NCBI GenBank assembly: GCA_020849655.1
Contig: JADLFU010000091.1
Coordinates: forward strand, 1-64,000
From: Polyangiaceae bacterium
GTDB lineage: Bacteria; Myxococcota_A; Polyangia; Polyangiales; Polyangiaceae
Direction of reading: 5' to 3'
DNA length: 64,000 bases
A program made the position numbers and the translations under genes. Numbering within the stretch: position 1 is the first letter of the stretch; every line of letters begins with the position of its first letter. Below the pieces are notes generated by a model. The model did no database searches, was not told where the DNA came from, and worked only from the letters and a program-made list of their open reading frames with translations. This document shows, piece by piece, positions 5,263-54,565 of the stretch.

Positions 5263-8200
5263 AGCGCCTGCTCGAGCGCTGGCCGATCTGGGCGGCGCTC
5301 CTCTTCCATGTGCTCGCGATCGCGTTCGTGGTGCGCGACGCGCGAGGCCCGCGCGAGCGACGCGTGACGTTCTCGGCCGGCGATCTGCAGGTCGTGCACG
5401 CGCCCGTCTCGGTGGCGGGGCGGCCGGCGTCGGGCGTGCGGCGGTTCGGCGTCGGCGACGCGATCGAGACGGGGCGCGACGGGCGCGGGCGCGCGCGGCT
5501 CGACGAGGGCACGGTCCTCGTGCTCGACCGCGACACCCGCGTCGTCGTCGACGCGAAGGGGCCGCGCGTGGAGCGAGGGCGCGTGGTGGTCGAGGGCGCG
5601 GACGCGGGGCGCCCCACGGTCTCGGTCGCGGGCGCCGAGCTCGTCGTCACCGGCGCCACAGCCGCCGTCGACGCGGGCGCGAAGCGGGTGACCTGTTCGA
5701 AGGGAGAGCTCGTCGTCACGCAGGGCGGAGAGCACCGCGTGCACGCCGGCGAGGCCGCGACGCTCGGCGGCGAGGTGAAGGTCGTGCCCGAGACCGTCTT
5801 CCTCGACTGGACGGGCGGGATGACGACGCCGTGGGGCGCGGACGGTCCGCCGCGCGCCGCCATCGGAGAGCTCTGGGGCCGCACGGGCGCGGGCGACGAC
5901 GCGGGCTCGCCGCTCGCAATTCGCGCTCATGCGGTCGACGTCCGCGTCGACGGAGAGCTCGCGACCACGCGCGTCGCGACCACCTATTTCAACGCTGGGA
6001 ACGGCCGGGTCGTCGGCGATTTTCGGATGGCGCTCCCGCCCACGGCGCTCGTCTCTCGCTTCGCGGAGGAGTCGCGCGGCAAGACCCGTGAAGGTCACGT
6101 CGCCGTCGCGAAGGACGACGGGCCGAGCGCCGACTCGAAGCTCGAGTGGGCGGGCGACGGCTGGGTGCGCGCCCAGACGACGCCGCTCGACGCGGGCGCG
6201 ACGCTCACCGTGATCCTCGAGTACGTCGAGTGGCTGCCCGTGGACGGCGACACCGTCACGTACCGCTACCCGATGGTGGGCGCTCCACGCGGCGCGTCGA
6301 TGGGCGAGCTCCGCGTGCGCGTCGACGCGGGGCCGTCGAGCCCGGTCGCGATCCACGCGCCGCAGGGCGCGGACGTGCGGGGCGCGGTCATCGAGCTCAC
6401 GCGGGCGGACGCGCGCCCCGCGGCCGACTTCGTGGTCGAGCTGTCGCTCCCGCCGAGCACGCTGCGCGGCGCGCGGGCCTACGTGGCGCCGCCCCTCGCC
6501 GCCGATCCTGCGGGGCCCTACGTCTTCGTGCGCACGCGCGTGCCTCCCGCGCCGCCCGCAGCGGGCGTGACGCTCGCCGTCGTCGTCGACACGTCGCTGA
6601 GCGTCGGGCCGTCGCTGCTCGACGCGGAGCGCGCGCTCGTCGAGGCGCTGCTCCTCGGGCTCGGCGCCGACGCTCGGGTGATCGTGCTCGCGGCCGACCA
6701 GGACCAGCGCCCCGTCGGGCCGGCCACGATCGGCCCGGTCGACGCGAAGCGACGAGCAGAGGTCCTGGGCGCGCTCACTGCGCTCGCCCCCGCGGGCGCG
6801 ACCGATCTCGGCGCGGCGCTCGAGCGCGCCGCCGATGCGCTGCCGAAGGGCGCTCCCGACGCGATGGTGCTCTACGTCGGCGACGGCTGGGCGACGGCGG
6901 GTGAGACCACGATGGAAGCCGTCCGCGCGCGCCTCTCGCGTCGTCGTGGCGGCGTGCCGAGGCTCGGCGCGGTCGCGGTCGGCCCGATGGCGAACCGCTT
7001 CGGCCTGACGGCGCTCGTGCGCGGCTCCGGCCCGGTGCTCGAGATCGCCGACAGGCGCGGCGCGGCAGAGGTCGCCGTCTCGCTGCTCTCGCTCGCGCTC
7101 CGCCCGACGGTCGCCGGCGTCGAGCTCGATCTCGGGCCGCACATCGAGCGCGTGTACCCGCGCGGCGCGCGCGCGCACCAGGCCGGCGGATCGGCCTACG
7201 CCGTCGGGCGCCTGCGCGGCCCGATGCCCGCCTCGGTGAAGCTGCGGTTCCTCCGAGGCGACGTCTCGGTGGAGGAGCCGCGCATGCTGATCCAGACGCC
7301 GATGCCCCAGCTCGGCGACGTTCGCCGCAGGTGGGCCGAGGCGCGCGTGGAGGAGCTCGCGCTGCGCGGCGAGGGGCGCGAGGTGACCGTGGACGCGGCC
7401 CAGAAGACGCAGCTGCTGACGCCGTGGACGGCGTGGATCCTCGGCGGGCAGACGTACAATCCATCCCCCCTCGAGCTGCGCGTGCTCGATCTCGCGGCGA
7501 TGCGCGCGGCCCCGCTCTCCGCGCGCCTCGCGACGCCGCCGGCTGCGCAGGGGGCGCTCGCCGAGCCGCCGGGAGATCTCTCGTCGAAGGGCGCCGACGA
7601 GGACCTCGACCGCGCGACCATCGCGGCCGCGCGGCGGGCCATCGACGACGCCTCCGACTCCATCCGCGCCTGTCGCGACGCGCGCGCAGGGCTCAGGCCC
7701 GAGCTCTCGGGGCCGCTCCGCATCTCGATCAAGCTCGGCGGAGACGGCGCGCCGAAGAAGGTCACCGTGTCCGCCGCGAGCGCGCGCGACGACGATCCCG
7801 CGCTCGACCGCTGCGTCGAGCTGGTCGTCCGGGGGCTCACGTACTTCGAGTCCGGGCGGACCGCGGAGCTCGTGATCCTGCACGAGGTGAGGCTCCCGCC
7901 CGTGCGCCCGACCCGCGTCACGACGTGCTCGCGCGCGTCGACGTTGCCCCTCGGCGCCAGGCGCGGCGTGTGGCGTGATCGCCTCCGCCGCGCGCCCGCG
8001 GCCGACGCGTACGTCGCAGCCAAGCAGTCGTGCGAGCTGCCGACGTGGACGGATCGTCGCGCGCTCCTCGAGCTGCTCCTCGACGCCGTCCCGCGCGGCG
8101 TCGCGCGGGTGGAGCTGGCGCGCGCGCTCGTCGATCGCGGCGAGCAGGAGGCGGCGGATCTCGTGCGCCGCGAGGCGGTGCGGCGCGCCACCTCGCCCGC

Positions 8201-47577: not shown

Positions 47578-48417
47578 ATGGGTGACGACGGGCGCTCGGG
47601 ACCGCAGCTCGTGCTCGGCGTCGTCTCGGGCGACGCGTCCGCGCGCGCGTCCGCGGAGCTCCTGTGCGCGGAGCTCGGCGCCGCGGCAGGCGCGTCGATC
47701 TCGTCGCGCCTGTTCCCGAGCTATGTCGCGCTGACGGACGCCGCCGCGTCGGGGGCCGCCGCGATCGTGTGGGCCCCGCCGCTCGTCGCGCTCGAGCTCG
47801 AGGCGCGCGGCGCGGCGACGGTGGTCGCGTGCTCCCGGCGACGCTCCGGCTCGACGTACCACGCGGCCCTGTTCACCCGCCGCGAGCTGCGCCTCTCGTC
47901 GCTCGCCGAGCTCCGCGGGCGCTCGATCGGGTGGGTCTCGCGGCAGAGCCTCTCGGGGCACATCGTCCCGCGCGCGTACCTGATCGCGAACGGCGTCGAT
48001 CCCGATCTGGTGTGCGGGGCGCAGCGCTTCTACGAGAACCACTCCGCGGTGGTGCGGGCGGTCGCCGGCGGCGCGTGCGACGTGGGCGCGACGTTCGCGA
48101 ACCTCGATCCGTCCACGCGCGCGATCCGTGACGCCGGGTGGAACGACGTCGGCGTGCGGGTCGACGCGTTCGAGGTGCTCGGCGTGACGGGCGCCATCCC
48201 GGCGGACGCGATGGCGCTCTCGACCCGGCTCCCCGAGCGGGTGCGCGCGGCCGTGACGGGCGCGCTCATCGGGCTTCCGGTGACGGCCCGCGGGGCGCTC
48301 CGCGCGCTCTTGCACGCCGACGCGCTCGAGCGGCCGACGGCCGAGTGGCGCCGGGCGTTCGACGCGCTCCGAGGGCTGCCGGCCCGCATCCACGCGTCGT
48401 CGCGTCCCCCCGCGTGA
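47578..48417 (+). CDS. PhnD-like periplasmic-binding-fold protein without signal peptide (279 aa)
   Basis: The two-lobed substrate-binding fold of the PhnD/phosphonate family is recognisable: LVLGVVSGDASARASAELLC, AIVWAPPLVALEL, LRGRSIGWVSRQSLSGHIVP and FYENHSAVVRAVAGGACDVG. Members usually serve ABC importers, but no signal peptide, lipobox or transporter gene is visible, so it probably binds a ligand in the cytoplasm or has been recruited as a sensor. Which ligand is not readable. It is 28 bases before the beta-propeller gene. Confidence 0.75.
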   Translation: MGDDGRSGPQLVLGVVSGDASARASAELLCAELGAAAGASISSRLFPSYVALTDAAASGAAAIVWAPPLVALELEARGAATVVACSRRRSGSTYHAALFTRRELRLSSLAELRGRSIGWVSRQSLSGHIVPRAYLIANGVDPDLVCGAQRFYENHSAVVRAVAGGACDVGATFANLDPSTRAIRDAGWNDVGVRVDAFEVLGVTGAIPADAMALSTRLPERVRAAVTGALIGLPVTARGALRALLHADALERPTAEWRRAFDALRGLPARIHASSRPPA

Positions 48418-48445: not shown

Positions 48446-49513
48446 GTGCGTGGTGTGACTCGCGGCGCGGTCGGGCTCGGGCTGATGGCCATCGGCGCCG
48501 TCGTCGCGCTGCGGGCTCGGTCGACGGCGCCGGGAGGCGCTCCCGCGCAGACGCCGGCGAGCAAGCCGCCGAGCTCCGTCACCGCGCGGCGCCCCGTCCC
48601 GCCTCGTCCGCCGCTCCCTGCGGCCCGCCCCTCCGTGTCCGGCGGCGCGGTCGTGTTCGGCGCCGCGTGGGGGAGCGGGCCGTCGGAGCTCGGTCGCAGC
48701 GCCGCGCGCGAGTCGTCGCCGATGGCGCCGATGAGCTTCGTGCCCGGTCCGGCGGGGCAAGCGCTCGTGCTCGATCAGGTCAACCAGCGCGTGCAGCTCG
48801 TGGAGGGCGGCCGGGTGGTGCGATCGATCCCGCTGCCGTCCGAGACGTTCGACGACGTGGCAAGGCTCGCAGGCGGGCGCGTCGCGGCGCTCGATCGCCT
48901 GGTCGCGCGCAGCGTCGCCGTCGTCGGGCCGTCGGGCGAGGTCGAGCGGGAGATCTCGCTCGCGGGCGGCGAGATCGAGCGGGCAGGGGACGTGACCTCC
49001 CTCCACGCGCGCGCCGACGGACTGTGGGTCGAGGTCGACCATGATAGACTCGTCAGGATCGCAGACGGGGCCGGCGCGCCCGCCGAGTCGCGGAGCGTCG
49101 TGCCAGGCCGCTTCTCGGCCGACGGCGCCTCATGGCTCCGCGCGCGCGTCGACGCCGATCGGGGGGTGACCGTGACGTCCACCCCGCGCGCCGGCGGGCC
49201 CCCTGAGCAGGCGCGGGTGGTGTTCGCGCTCCCGGTGCTCTCGGTAGCGGCGCTGGAGAGCGACGCCACGGGGCGCGTCCTGCTCGTCGCGACGACGATC
49301 GACGAGGCTCCCGTCGCGCCGTACGACGTGCTCCGCGTCGAGGAGACGCTCGTCGTGCTCGACCGCCAGCTCGCGGAGCTGCGCCGGATCGCGCTCCCTG
49401 CGAAGACGACGCCCGAGGAGCAGCTCGTGCGGTATCGCGTCGGGCCGGACGGCGCGCTCTACTCTCTCTCGCTCGACGACCAGGGCGCCACCCTGCGGAG
49501 GATCGACCCATGA
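48446..49513 (+). CDS. anchored beta-propeller-like protein (355 aa)
   Basis: GTG 48446 begins a short anchor (about residues 8-22), then a Pro/Ala linker to about 65. The rest (70-355) shows repeated four-strand blades typical of NHL/SMP-type propellers, such as [20 protein letters not shown] and [17 protein letters not shown]. It probably sits on the envelope surface and binds a partner. Its stop overlaps the NlpC/P60-type gene by ATGA, so all three downstream genes form a likely operon concerned with the cell surface. No enzyme motif is visible. Confidence 0.7.
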
Positions 49514-51099
49514 TGAAGTCCGCCCACGCAGCCTGGATCGGGGCGACGCTCGGCGTCGCGGCGCTCACCCTGGCGGGGGACGTCGCGGCGCTGCAGCCGC
49601 TCAGCCGCGACGAGATCATCGCCCGCGCGAAGACGGTCGTCGGCTACTCCTACTGGTGGGGGCACGGCAAGTGGCGCACCGACGGCGCGCAGCACGGCTC
49701 GTGCTCGGGCAGCTGCCCCAGCTGCTCGCACTCCGGCAGCTACGGCGCCGACTGCTCCGGGTTCGTCGGCAAGGCCTGGCAGGTCCCGTCGCCGAGCCCC
49801 GTCACGCAGGAGCAGTCGCCGCACTACACGACGTGGAGCTACGCGGGCTCGTCGTCGATGTGGGGGCCGATCTCGAAGACCGCGGGCAAGCGCGGCGACG
49901 CGTACGTCTACAACTCGGGCGGCGCGGGCCACATCTTCCTCTTCGAGGGCACCACCAACTGGAGCTACGTGAAGGCGTACGAGTGCAAGGGGTGCTCGTA
50001 CGGCTGTGTCTACGGCACGCGTGAGCTCTCGGCCGTGTACTCCGGGCGCCGCCGCGCCGCCGTCACCGACGTCGTCGACACGGACGGCGACGGGGTGCCC
50101 GACGACAAGGACAATTGCGACACCGTCGACAACAAGGACCAGAAGGACACCGACGGCGACAAGAAGGGCGACGCCTGCGACACCGACGACGACGGCGACG
50201 GCGATCTCGACACGAAGGACAACTGTCCGCTCGCCAAGAACCCCGACCAGATCGACACCGACAAGGACAAGAAGGGCGACGCGTGCGACACGGACGACGA
50301 CGGCGACGGCGTCCTCGACGCGAAGGACGTCTGCCCGCTCGTCGCTGACAAGTCCCAGCAGGACACCGACAAGGACAAGCAGGGCGACGCCTGCGACGAC
50401 GACGACGACGGCGACGGCGTCAAGGACGCCGCGGACAACTGCCCGGTCGTCGCCAACAAGGACCAGGCCGACAGCGACGGGGACGGGCGGGGCAACGCGT
50501 GCGACGGCGACGACGACGGCGATGGGTTCCCCGACGCTACGGACAACTGCCCCAAGGTCGCCAACAAGGACCAGGCCGATCTCGACGCCGACCAGCTCGG
50601 CGACGCGTGCGACGACGACCGGGACGGGGACGGCGCGCCCGACGCCAAGGACAACTGCCCCGACGATCCCAACAAGGACCAGGCCGACGCGAACCACGAC
50701 GGCGTCGGCGACGCGTGCGAGGGCGATCTCGATGGGGACGGCGTGCCCAATGATCGCGACAGCTGCCCCGCCGCCGCGAACCCCGGTCAGGAGGACGACG
50801 ACGGCGACGGCGCGGGCGACGCGTGCGACGACGATCGCGACGGCGACGGCGTGTCGAACGCGAAGGACAACTGCCCCGACTACCCCAACGCCGGCCAGGA
50901 GGACGTCTGCCACGACGGGGACAGCGGGCTCGACCCGACCGGCGGCAAGGATCTCGAGCTGACCCTCGCGCCCACCGCCAGCGAGGAGGCCGGAGGCTGC
51001 GGGGTGTCGCCGCCCGGCGGATCGCGCGACAGCGGCCTCGGGCTGATGGGCCTCGGGTTGCTGCTGGTGCTCGGCGGGCGAAGGGAGCGTCGCTCGTGA
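49510..51099 (+). CDS. secreted NlpC/P60-type hydrolase with TSP3 repeats and MYXO-CTERM (529 aa)
   Basis: A signal peptide is followed by a cysteine-peptidase-like domain (about 35-175). Its [14 protein letters not shown] holds the catalytic Cys and [10 protein letters not shown] the His, as in NlpC/P60 peptidoglycan endopeptidases; an extra Cys cluster ([10 protein letters not shown]) lies between. Eight thrombospondin type 3 calcium-binding repeats (DGDGVPDxxDNCP) fill about 194-475. The C-terminus GGCGVSPP, hydrophobic stretch and GGRRERRS tail form a MYXO-CTERM signal that directs proteolytic anchoring. It overlaps the propeller gene (ATGA) and the SpoIID-like gene (GTGA). It likely trims peptidoglycan at the surface. 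Confidence 0.85.
50086..50905. repeat. TSP3 calcium-binding repeat block, first gene
   Basis: Eight tandem degenerate units of about 75-110 bases, each encoding an aspartate-rich loop and an Asn/Asp-Cys-Pro. The DNA motif GACGGCGACGG and GGCGACGC(G)TGCGAC recur in every unit, so this block and the one in the next gene could recombine. Confidence 0.75.
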
Positions 51100-52724
51100 G
51101 GCGGGCGCTCGCGGCGTCGGCCGTCTCGCTCTCGCTGCTCGCCGCGTGCGGCGCGGGCGACGGGGCCGACGACGAGGTCACGGACGAGGTCGCGCTCCCG
51201 CTCGCCGCCCACTGCAGCGTCAACGTCGTGGGCAAGGGAACGAAGGACGTCGAGTCCGACTACCTGCCGCACGTGGTGCACTGTGAGAACGGCGGCGCGC
51301 CGTTCGAGGCGCTGAAGGCGCAGGCCATCGCGGCGCGCACCTACCTGTACTACAAACTGAAGAAGGGCACGTCCATCACGGACGGTCAGGGCGACCAGGT
51401 CTACTCGTGCGGCAGCGGCCCCACGGCGGCGCAGATCAAGGCCGTGAAGGACACCGCGGGGCAGGTGCTGCAGTACCAGGGCACGACGATCGCAGGGTTC
51501 TTCGTCGCCGGCGCGCAGCAGAGCCCTCCGTCGTGCAAGGGCAAGACGGGCGCCGCGACCGAGAAGTACGTCACCTACAACGAGGGCCTCACGGGCTCGA
51601 AGGTGCACCAGACCTCGCTCGGCTGGATCAGCCCGACCAACAAGGAGAACCGCGGCTGCATGTCGCAGTGGGGCGCGCGCTGCCTGGACGCCGCGGGGCG
51701 CACGTCGACGAGCATCCTGAAGTTCTACTACGGCGCTGACATCTCCATCGTCACCGCGAGCGGCAGCTGCGTGGGCGGCGACAAGGACGGCGACGGGGTC
51801 GCGGACGCGAAGGACAACTGCCCGAGCGCCGCGAACGCGAGCCAGCTGGACACCGACAAGGACAAGAAGGGCGACGCGTGCGACGACGACGACGACGGAG
51901 ACGGCGACGAGGACGGCGCCGACAACTGCTCGCTCGTGAAGAACGCGGACCAGGCGGACCTCGACAAGGACAAGAAGGGCGACGCGTGCGACAGCGACGA
52001 CGACGGGGACGGCGTGCCCGACGCCAGCGACAACTGCCCGCGCAACACCAACCAGTCGCAGCTCGACTCTGACAAGGACAAGAAGGGCGACGCGTGCGAC
52101 GACGACGACGACGGGGACGGCGTGCCCGACGCCAGCGACAATTGCCCGCTCACGAAGAACGCCGACCAGGCCGACGCCGACAAGGACGGGAAGGGCGACG
52201 CCTGCGAGACCGACGACGACGGGGACGGCGTGCCCGACGCCGCCGACGTCTGCCCGAAGGTCGCCGACCCAGACCAGGCCGACGCCGACAAGGACAAGAA
52301 GGGCGACGCGTGCGACGACGACGACGACGGGGACGGCGCGCCCGACGCCACCGACAACTGCCCGGCGCTCGCGAACGCTGATCAGGCCGACGACAACGAA
52401 GACGGCACGGGCGACGCTTGTCAGCTCGACGAGGACGGCGACGGCGAGCCGGACGTCAGCGACAACTGCCCCGGCGTGGAGAACCCCGATCAGTCCGACA
52501 GCGACGGGGACGGCCGCGGCGACGCGTGCGACGCGCCGCCAGCGAAGCCGCCGATCGACGACGACCGCGAGCCGGCGGGCGGGCAGGGGGTCGTCGTCAC
52601 TGTCACGCCGAACGAGACGGAGGCGTCGGGCGGCTGCGGCGTCTCGCGCGGCAGCGGGGGCGCGGGCGCCCTCTCGCTGGTCGCGGTCGCGTGGCTCGCC
52701 TCCCGCCGTCGCCGCCGGGCCTGA
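51096..52724 (+). CDS. SpoIID/LytB-like lipoprotein with TSP3 repeats and MYXO-CTERM (542 aa)
   Basis: GTG 51096 overlaps the previous stop. The N-terminus carries a lipobox (LLAAC, Cys 18). The SpoIID-type domain (about 45-215) has [18 protein letters not shown], the family hallmark, and a later [12 protein letters not shown]. SpoIID-like proteins act as lytic transglycosylases on peptidoglycan lacking stem peptides. Seven TSP3 calcium-binding repeats (about 228-480) and a C-terminal GGCGVSRG, hydrophobic stretch and RRRRRA form a MYXO-CTERM. It therefore has two sorting signals. It pairs with the NlpC/P60-type neighbour, which cuts the peptide side. Confidence 0.82.
51781..52530. repeat. 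TSP3 calcium-binding repeat block, second gene
   Basis: Seven tandem units similar to those of the upstream gene; GACAAGGACAAGAAGGGCGA recurs several times in both genes. The period is a multiple of three, so unequal exchange keeps the frame. Confidence 0.75.
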
Positions 52725-52727
52725 CGG

Positions 52728-53014
52728 TCACTCCTCGGGCAGCGGCTGCAGCGTCACCTCGAGCGCGATGGGCTCGTCGCCCGCGGTGACGACGCGGTCC
52801 CACGGGAAGTACCCTGCGCGCTCGACGGAGACGTGGTGGGGGCCCTTCGTCAGCTTGAGGCCGTACCGCGACACCAGGCCGAGATCGCCGACCACGATGT
52901 CGTCGACGATCACGGTCGCGTCCCGGGGCGCGCCGACCAGCTTGACCTTGCCCGTCGTCGGTCGCGCCCCGGCGCAGCCCGCGAGGAGCAGGAGCGAGAG
53001 GGTGAGCGCGCGCG

Positions 53015-53018
<4 letters not shown>
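52728..53018 (-). CDS. PEGA-domain lipoprotein (96 aa)
   Basis: GTG 53018 overlaps the guaA stop (GTGA) and begins a short lipoprotein signal ([12 protein letters not shown], Cys about 13). The mature part is one PEGA beta-sandwich domain: [42 protein letters not shown] domains are thought to bind cell-surface carbohydrate or protein. It ends three bases from the convergent SpoIID-like gene. Coupling to guaA is probably incidental to function. Confidence 0.8.

Positions 53019-54565
<1,547 letters not shown>

Follow-up and report, generated by a model that had tools for sequence, protein, structure and literature searches.

Introduction

Several described systems resemble parts of the locus examined here. 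RipA and RipB, the D,L-endopeptidases of Mycobacterium tuberculosis, are exported and possess a Cys-His-Glu catalytic set (PMC12067865), and Photobacterium damselae subsp. piscicida is reported to secrete an NlpC/P60 endopeptidase that cleaves the peptidoglycan of potentially competing bacteria (PMC7860986). Glycan strands are the substrate of SpoIID, which in Bacillus subtilis acts on strands already stripped of their peptides (PMC6635528) and in Clostridioides difficile needs SpoIIP to act first (PMC6221140, PMC6635528). Proteins bearing a C-terminal MYXO-CTERM tail are cleaved by a myxosortase and displayed on the cell surface via the type II secretion system (T2SS), whose clients are recognized after folding, and lipidation of the tail Cys has been proposed (PMC11980579). 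Here, we analyze a three-gene locus that has features in common with these systems. It lies at positions 48446 to 52724 of a 64,000-nucleotide stretch of DNA (hereafter, the window) taken from contig JADLFU010000091.1 of a Polyangiaceae bacterium (assembly GCA_020849655.1), and encodes a predicted NlpC/P60 peptidase (A), a predicted SpoIID-type lytic transglycosylase (B), and a predicted membrane-anchored beta-propeller (C). Among Myxococcota, the constant partner of A is C, rather than B.

Results

The contig from which the window comes measures 115.7 kb and belongs to a draft genome of 6.56 Mb (307 contigs, 97% complete, 4% contamination). Protein families, intact catalytic residues, gene overlaps, the linkage and co-divergence of C and A, and the presence of sorting signals were all established by computation. 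The ORF (open reading frame) coordinates place the three genes on the + strand with consecutive overlaps, creating a C-A-B unit. Gene C (48446..49513; GTG start, 355 amino acids) shares an ATGA overlap between its stop codon and the start of A (49510..49513), while gene A (49510..51099; ATG start, TGA stop, 529 amino acids) shares a GTGA overlap with the start of B (51096..51099), and gene B (51096..52724; GTG start, 542 amino acids) completes the unit. An earlier interpretation of this DNA made from its letters alone (the sequence-only reading) had described A and B as tandem peptidoglycan hydrolases, and its coordinates, GTGA coupling, domain order, and counts of seven and eight TSP3 stretches all agree with the ORFs and the Pfam matches. 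It omitted gene C, the ATGA-coupled upstream gene and the most conserved partner of A.

When examined alone, C yields no Pfam hit. Its family is more informative, as the NHL repeat profile is matched by 15 of 29 C-family members (best E 8e-4), and a profile of the family retrieves NHL and Pizza propellers from the PDB (best E 6.7e-26) as well as the propeller of PknD (E 1.1e-10). These matches identify C as a predicted N-terminally anchored NHL-type beta-propeller. The propeller region (48638..49510, +) corresponds to the portion conserved in the family alignment and is preceded by a hydrophobic N-terminal anchor and a Pro/Ala-rich linker (48446..48637, +). C homologs likewise begin with a single hydrophobic transmembrane anchor or a lipobox at the same place, which is usually followed by a Pro/Ala-rich stretch. 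This layout is reminiscent of the lipase-specific foldases (Lif), which are membrane-anchored, contain a Pro/Ala-rich linker, and are encoded beside the exported enzyme. The resemblance is a works-like analogy only, since the fold of C is unrelated and a foldase role for C is hypothetical.

The association between C and A is evident from both directions. C is found within 4 kb of 65 of the 76 A hits (46 on the same strand, 19 divergent, and 0 convergent), and A is found within 4 kb of 64 of the 70 C hits. Among 377 Myxococcota genomes, A is encoded in 56 and C in 52, and 51 genomes have both (p 4e-56). A more sensitive search placed C near A at 66 of 69 loci, and in two of the 3 exceptions C is located on another contig. 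The arrangement of the two genes varies with the architecture of A, of which there are two: one has an N-terminal NlpC domain with a long extension, and the other has a C-terminal NlpC domain (SH3-bearing in the two proteins scanned). For the former, C is upstream on the same strand in 38/38 loci where C is present; for the latter, C is divergent in 18 cases, downstream in 9, and upstream in 1. Linked A and C proteins also co-diverge, with r of 0.494 compared to 0.323 (standard deviation 0.039) for within-genome shuffles of the partners, 0 of 2000 of which reached as high a value. Co-divergence alone would also be expected from linkage, but the persistence of the C-A link across rearrangements together with co-divergence makes a functional connection a better explanation than synteny by chance.

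No third neighbor common to all C-A loci was found, and PADLOC returned no hit that would link the locus to a defense system. Similarly, the A-C couple has no model of its own in Pfam, NCBIfam, or PADLOC. Full-text literature searches found no published account of it, nor any paper that brings NHL repeats together with NlpC and peptidoglycan, or SpoIID together with NlpC and myxococcal bacteria. While the single domains all belong to known families, the A-C couple appears to be undescribed.

The assignment of A required family-level tests, because A alone has no NlpC hit in Pfam or NCBIfam and Pfam detects only its TSP3 stretches. Within an alignment of 35 A-family members, 25 match NLPC_P60 (PF00877; best E 5.4e-5), and one further relative scores 25.1 bits against the PF00877 cut-off of 23. 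When the A family was compared by hhalign to eight canonical NlpC/P60 domains drawn from within the same bacterial family, the probability was 95.3% (E 2.1e-8) and the Cys and His motifs lined up, and a profile search of the PDB placed RipA, MepS/Spr, and PcsB at the top, albeit weakly (E 0.013 and worse). C82 (in a DCSG motif), H141, and E158 are invariant over the 35 aligned sequences. A is assigned through its family as a divergent NlpC/P60 cysteine peptidase (domain at 49591..50064, +) with an intact Cys82-His141-Glu158 set, and peptidoglycan cleavage is predicted. The distinguishing mark of the family is a conserved insert, GxCxxxCPxCxH, located just before the catalytic Cys (A residues 65-74, window 49702-49731) and without a counterpart in the canonical NlpC/P60 domains used for comparison; this cluster may be a zinc site or may form disulfides. 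A shares with RipA and RipB the Cys-His-Glu set, the DCSG motif, and, by prediction, export, along with the weak match to RipA structures. It differs in its Cys/His-rich insert, its TSP3 repeats and MYXO-CTERM tail, and its partnership with an NHL propeller, and it has no counterpart of the regulatory prodomain of RipA. With the Photobacterium enzyme, A would share the combination of secretion and an NlpC/P60 domain, although the available part of that report mentions neither a propeller partner nor a surface anchor (PMC7860986).

Relatives of A are present in 62/377 genomes by a single-query search and in 71/377 by a profile search. The search of a viral collection gave one match, a 338-kb contig filed as viral (IMGVR_UViG_3300005326_000040, L181) with an A-family gene 68% identical to that of locus L059 and no C within 3 kb; this contig is possibly misfiled host DNA. 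The corresponding search of a plasmid collection gave one weak Streptomyces match.

For B, the domain assignment is direct. B scores 49.8 bits against PF08486 (cut-off 23) and 83.9 against TIGR02669 (cut-off 83.3), whereas the sporulation SpoIID equivalog TIGR02870 gives it 47.5 bits and has a cut-off of 234.75, which it did not reach. B is accordingly classed by profile as SpoIID-like and not as the sporulation ortholog. An AlphaFold model of the domain (51207..51770, +) built from 47 sequences has a predicted local distance difference test (pLDDT) score of 93.3 and matches C. difficile SpoIID (5i1t; Z 17.4, root-mean-square deviation (rmsd) 2.8 over 157), SleC (9h68; Z 17.3, rmsd 1.8 Å over 149 residues), and Bacillus SpoIID (4rwr; Z 14.6), with the next matches of the fold search at a Z of ~5. 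Glu64 of B is invariant in all 47 aligned sequences and lines up with E101, the catalytic Glu of C. difficile SpoIID, whose mutant is inactive (PMC6221140); the catalytic Glu of B. subtilis SpoIID is E88 (PMC6221140, PMC6635528). The model and alignment indicate a SpoIID fold with a conserved catalytic Glu64, from which transglycosylase activity is predicted. Both fold and catalytic Glu are shared with SpoIID of C. difficile and Bacillus and with SleC; B is set apart from these as a Cys-rich variant with a changed GHGVG motif that is carried on a lipobox-TSP3-MYXO-CTERM protein. It is the sole SpoIID-domain match in its genome. Relatives of B occur in 121/377 genomes, a search of named genomes gave 48 loci, and neither a SpoIIP-type amidase nor SpoIIM was identified among the neighbors of B. 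The wall-cutting domains proposed by the sequence-only reading thus withstand the profile check for both proteins, as each falls within a hydrolase family and keeps its catalytic residues.

Both A and B have an N-terminal signal peptide and a C-terminal tail composed of GGCGV, a hydrophobic stretch, and an Arg-rich end, as read from the sequence. The tails (A, C497, 50986..51093, +; B, C514, 52626..52718, +) fit the MYXO-CTERM type claimed by the sequence-only reading, though their scores are marginal (see Discussion). Within this genome, 42 ORFs exceed the MYXO-CTERM cut-off compared to 0 in 14 control genomes, which indicates that a MYXO-CTERM sorting system is in use, and seven CPBP-family hits are present. 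Between domain and tail, A contains seven TSP3 repeats (50077..50925, +; PF02412, 219 bits in 7 stretches) and B contains eight (51777..52534, +; PF02412, 208 bits in 8 stretches). The Cys-transmembrane-Arg tail is a feature that A and B share with TraA and MtsC, the latter being a TSP3-bearing MYXO-CTERM protein (NF047638), whereas wall-cutting domains distinguish A and B from both, as does the lipobox in the case of B. Through their TSP3 parts, A and B score 286 and 309 bits against the MtsC cohesion protein model NF047638 and do not reach its cut-off of 350. The TSP3 stalk was considered as a defining part of these proteins and rejected, as it is an optional linker present in only 12/63 B relatives and about 14/69 A loci.

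The lipobox of B (LLAA-C18, within the signal peptide at 51096..51149, +) is present as the sequence-only reading had proposed and is common in the B family. By strict patterns, a lipobox occurs in 50/69 members, a MYXO-CTERM-like tail in 42/63, and both in 32/63; none of 36 A relatives has a lipobox. The double anchor was rejected as a unique property of B, since a lipobox is also found in 7/38 other MYXO-CTERM ORFs of this genome, a count made with slightly different patterns than those of the B family and therefore suited to a coarse comparison only. The combination of a lipobox and a MYXO-CTERM-like tail within the B family poses a question for myxosortase biology, namely whether one protein can be lipidated at both ends. 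The same genome also encodes a separate 710-amino-acid protein (G000:C240:8500-10900, L201) in which a lipobox is combined with ~8 TSP3-like units and with a MYXO-CTERM tail of the GGC kind.

In comparison to the C-A link, the teaming of A and B across the phylum is occasional. A adjoins B in only three of the genomes found, namely the present one, KLAP97 (L002), and G281 (L010), and the GTGA coupling recurs in KLAP97. In two others (G115 and G249), B-type and A-type domains are fused within one ORF, and in both cases C lies directly upstream of the fusion. Across the 377 genomes, co-occurrence of A and B was observed 16 times against 11 expected (Fisher p = 0.054), which is not significant. 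A conserved A-B pair as a general rule was consequently rejected, and this portion of the sequence-only reading, which had proposed a surface-exposed lytic pair to be sought in other Myxococcota, was not borne out, whereas its account of the domains and surface-sorting signals was. Given the few genomes with adjacent genes and the non-significant co-occurrence, the two enzymes probably act jointly only in genomes that link their genes. The combination is chemically sensible, because SpoIID of B. subtilis works on stripped strands and that of C. difficile after SpoIIP. Like the SpoIID-SpoIIP (DMP) machine, A and B would bring together a glycan-strand cutter and a peptide cutter, here through overlapping genes and elsewhere, in two genomes, through fusion. 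The peptide cutter differs, being of the NlpC/P60 type rather than SpoIIP, and the A-B module carries outward-sorting signals.

Single ORFs that fuse SpoIID-type and NlpC-type domains occur at loci L120 (about 6528-7787, -) and L121 (6764-8050, +), where they end in a Cys-rich module, CSSCAxxVCxxDxxCC...WDxxC. A similar Cys-rich module ends several A proteins (L221, L223, L225, and L227).

Discussion

We consider it about an even chance that C, A, and B constitute a module that faces outward and degrades peptidoglycan, with the propeller guarding, folding, or directing the peptidase while it is exported. According to this model, the three genes would form one translationally coupled operon dedicated to the digestion of peptidoglycan outside the cell, be it the wall of prey, debris, or kin, with A, as a RipA-like Cys-His-Glu peptidase, cutting stem peptides and B, as a SpoIID-type lytic transglycosylase, cutting the glycan strand. 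Both enzymes would be exported and then lipidated and cleaved at the Cys of the MYXO-CTERM tail; calcium-binding TSP3 spacers would carry them on the outer surface, with the N-terminus of B perhaps anchored as well. C would be anchored, face the periplasm, and bind A before type II export, either keeping the peptidase off the wall of its own cell or aiding its folding. We infer the enzymatic activity, the surface location, the outward target, and the guard or foldase role of C. Because the T2SS takes folded clients and an active periplasmic endopeptidase would threaten the cell's own wall, so constant a companion is most economically explained as a dedicated inhibitor or foldase held by an anchor. 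The B-A fusions tie the two wall-cutting activities together. Taken alone, the guard or foldase role, for which binding between C and A is predicted, is a tentative proposal that we would place below the module as a whole.

Several results weigh against this model. The rare adjacency and non-significant co-occurrence of A and B have already been described. The MYXO-CTERM model TIGR03901 has a cut-off of 20, which A (20.1) and B (20.2) barely exceed in a six-frame search, while in a whole-protein scan A scores 14.5 and B is unlisted. The best myxosortase candidate in the genome scores 141 bits against NF040593 (MrtX), below the cut-off of 180, over positions 45-236 of 238. The AlphaFold model of the A domain, built from three sequences (the window, L002, and L010), has a pLDDT of only 30.5, and the fold of A is accordingly predicted from profiles. 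In B, the GHGVG motif is changed to ENRGC, and the Zn-ligand pair of C. difficile SpoIID (C140 and C146) is replaced by T and D, even though most relatives have Cys; the Cys pair is missing in Bacillus SpoIID (4rwr) too, which suggests that it is not required across the whole family. Lastly, NHL propellers perform many jobs.

The PknD kinase has an NHL propeller with a presumed sensor role, and the match of the C family profile to that propeller, together with the membrane anchoring of C and its constant link to A, would also suit a targeting or sensing partner that recognizes a ligand on the wall or surface and either recruits A or activates it. C carries no fused kinase or other output domain, and a guard or foldase would explain the constant partner of an exported wall hydrolase equally well; we consider targeting or sensing a possibility nearly as likely as the guard or foldase role. 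The direction in which the enzymes face can be questioned as well. A and B could remodel the wall of their own cell from the periplasm, during division or fruiting-body development, in which case the tails would be membrane anchors rather than surface signals. The marginal tail scores would fit this scenario, as would the action of SpoIID-type enzymes at the septum of non-sporulating Chlamydiales (PMC6635528) and the reported action of NlpC/P60 enzymes such as RipA in cell separation (PMC6628586). Yet, A and B are each confined to a minority of the genomes (62 and 121 of 377, respectively), unlike a core division function, and this type of tail directs proteins to the surface (PMC11980579), which makes a role in own-wall remodeling rather unlikely.

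The remaining two explanations fare worse. The GTGA coupling here and in KLAP97, the B-A fusions in two genomes, and the predicted surface sorting of both proteins would agree with a dedicated and conserved lytic pair for predation to which C is incidental, but the rarity of A-B adjacency, their non-significant co-occurrence, and the almost invariable presence of C beside A, even at both fusions, render this improbable. It is even harder to envision that the domains are inactive and that A and B serve as wall-binding adhesins on TSP3 stalks, similar to the cohesion protein MtsC. While their TSP3 parts resemble MtsC at scores below the cut-off and some motifs of B are changed, none of the catalytic residues of A varies across dozens of diverged relatives, nor does the catalytic Glu of B, and most relatives lack TSP3 repeats.

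If the guard or foldase proposal is true, the C-A couple would unite an enzyme with the means of self-protection in a module to which myxobacteria attach interchangeable display parts, namely an SH3 domain, TSP3 or other stalks with MYXO-CTERM tails, or a fused SpoIID cutter. It is conceivable, though doubtful at present, that C is the first example of a class of periplasmic inhibitors or foldases built on an NHL propeller, seen only in Myxococcota so far, that make a Cys-rich NlpC/P60 enzyme safe to export. The near-constant and arrangement-independent link between hydrolase and propeller provides a lead on the way in which myxobacteria deal with their own wall-cutting enzymes while exporting them.

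Genomic context

The named relatives of the window proteins are from Myxococcota, with many from Polyangiaceae. A promoter scan of the locus found none and is uninformative at this G+C. Directly upstream of C is a gene for a PhnD-type phosphonate/phosphate periplasmic binding protein (47578-48417, +), which is not common to other C-A loci. Downstream, a small ORF convergent to B (52728-53216, -) has a weak PEGA-domain match below the cut-off, and the ORF after it, likewise on the minus strand, is GMP synthase-like (53015-54565, -).

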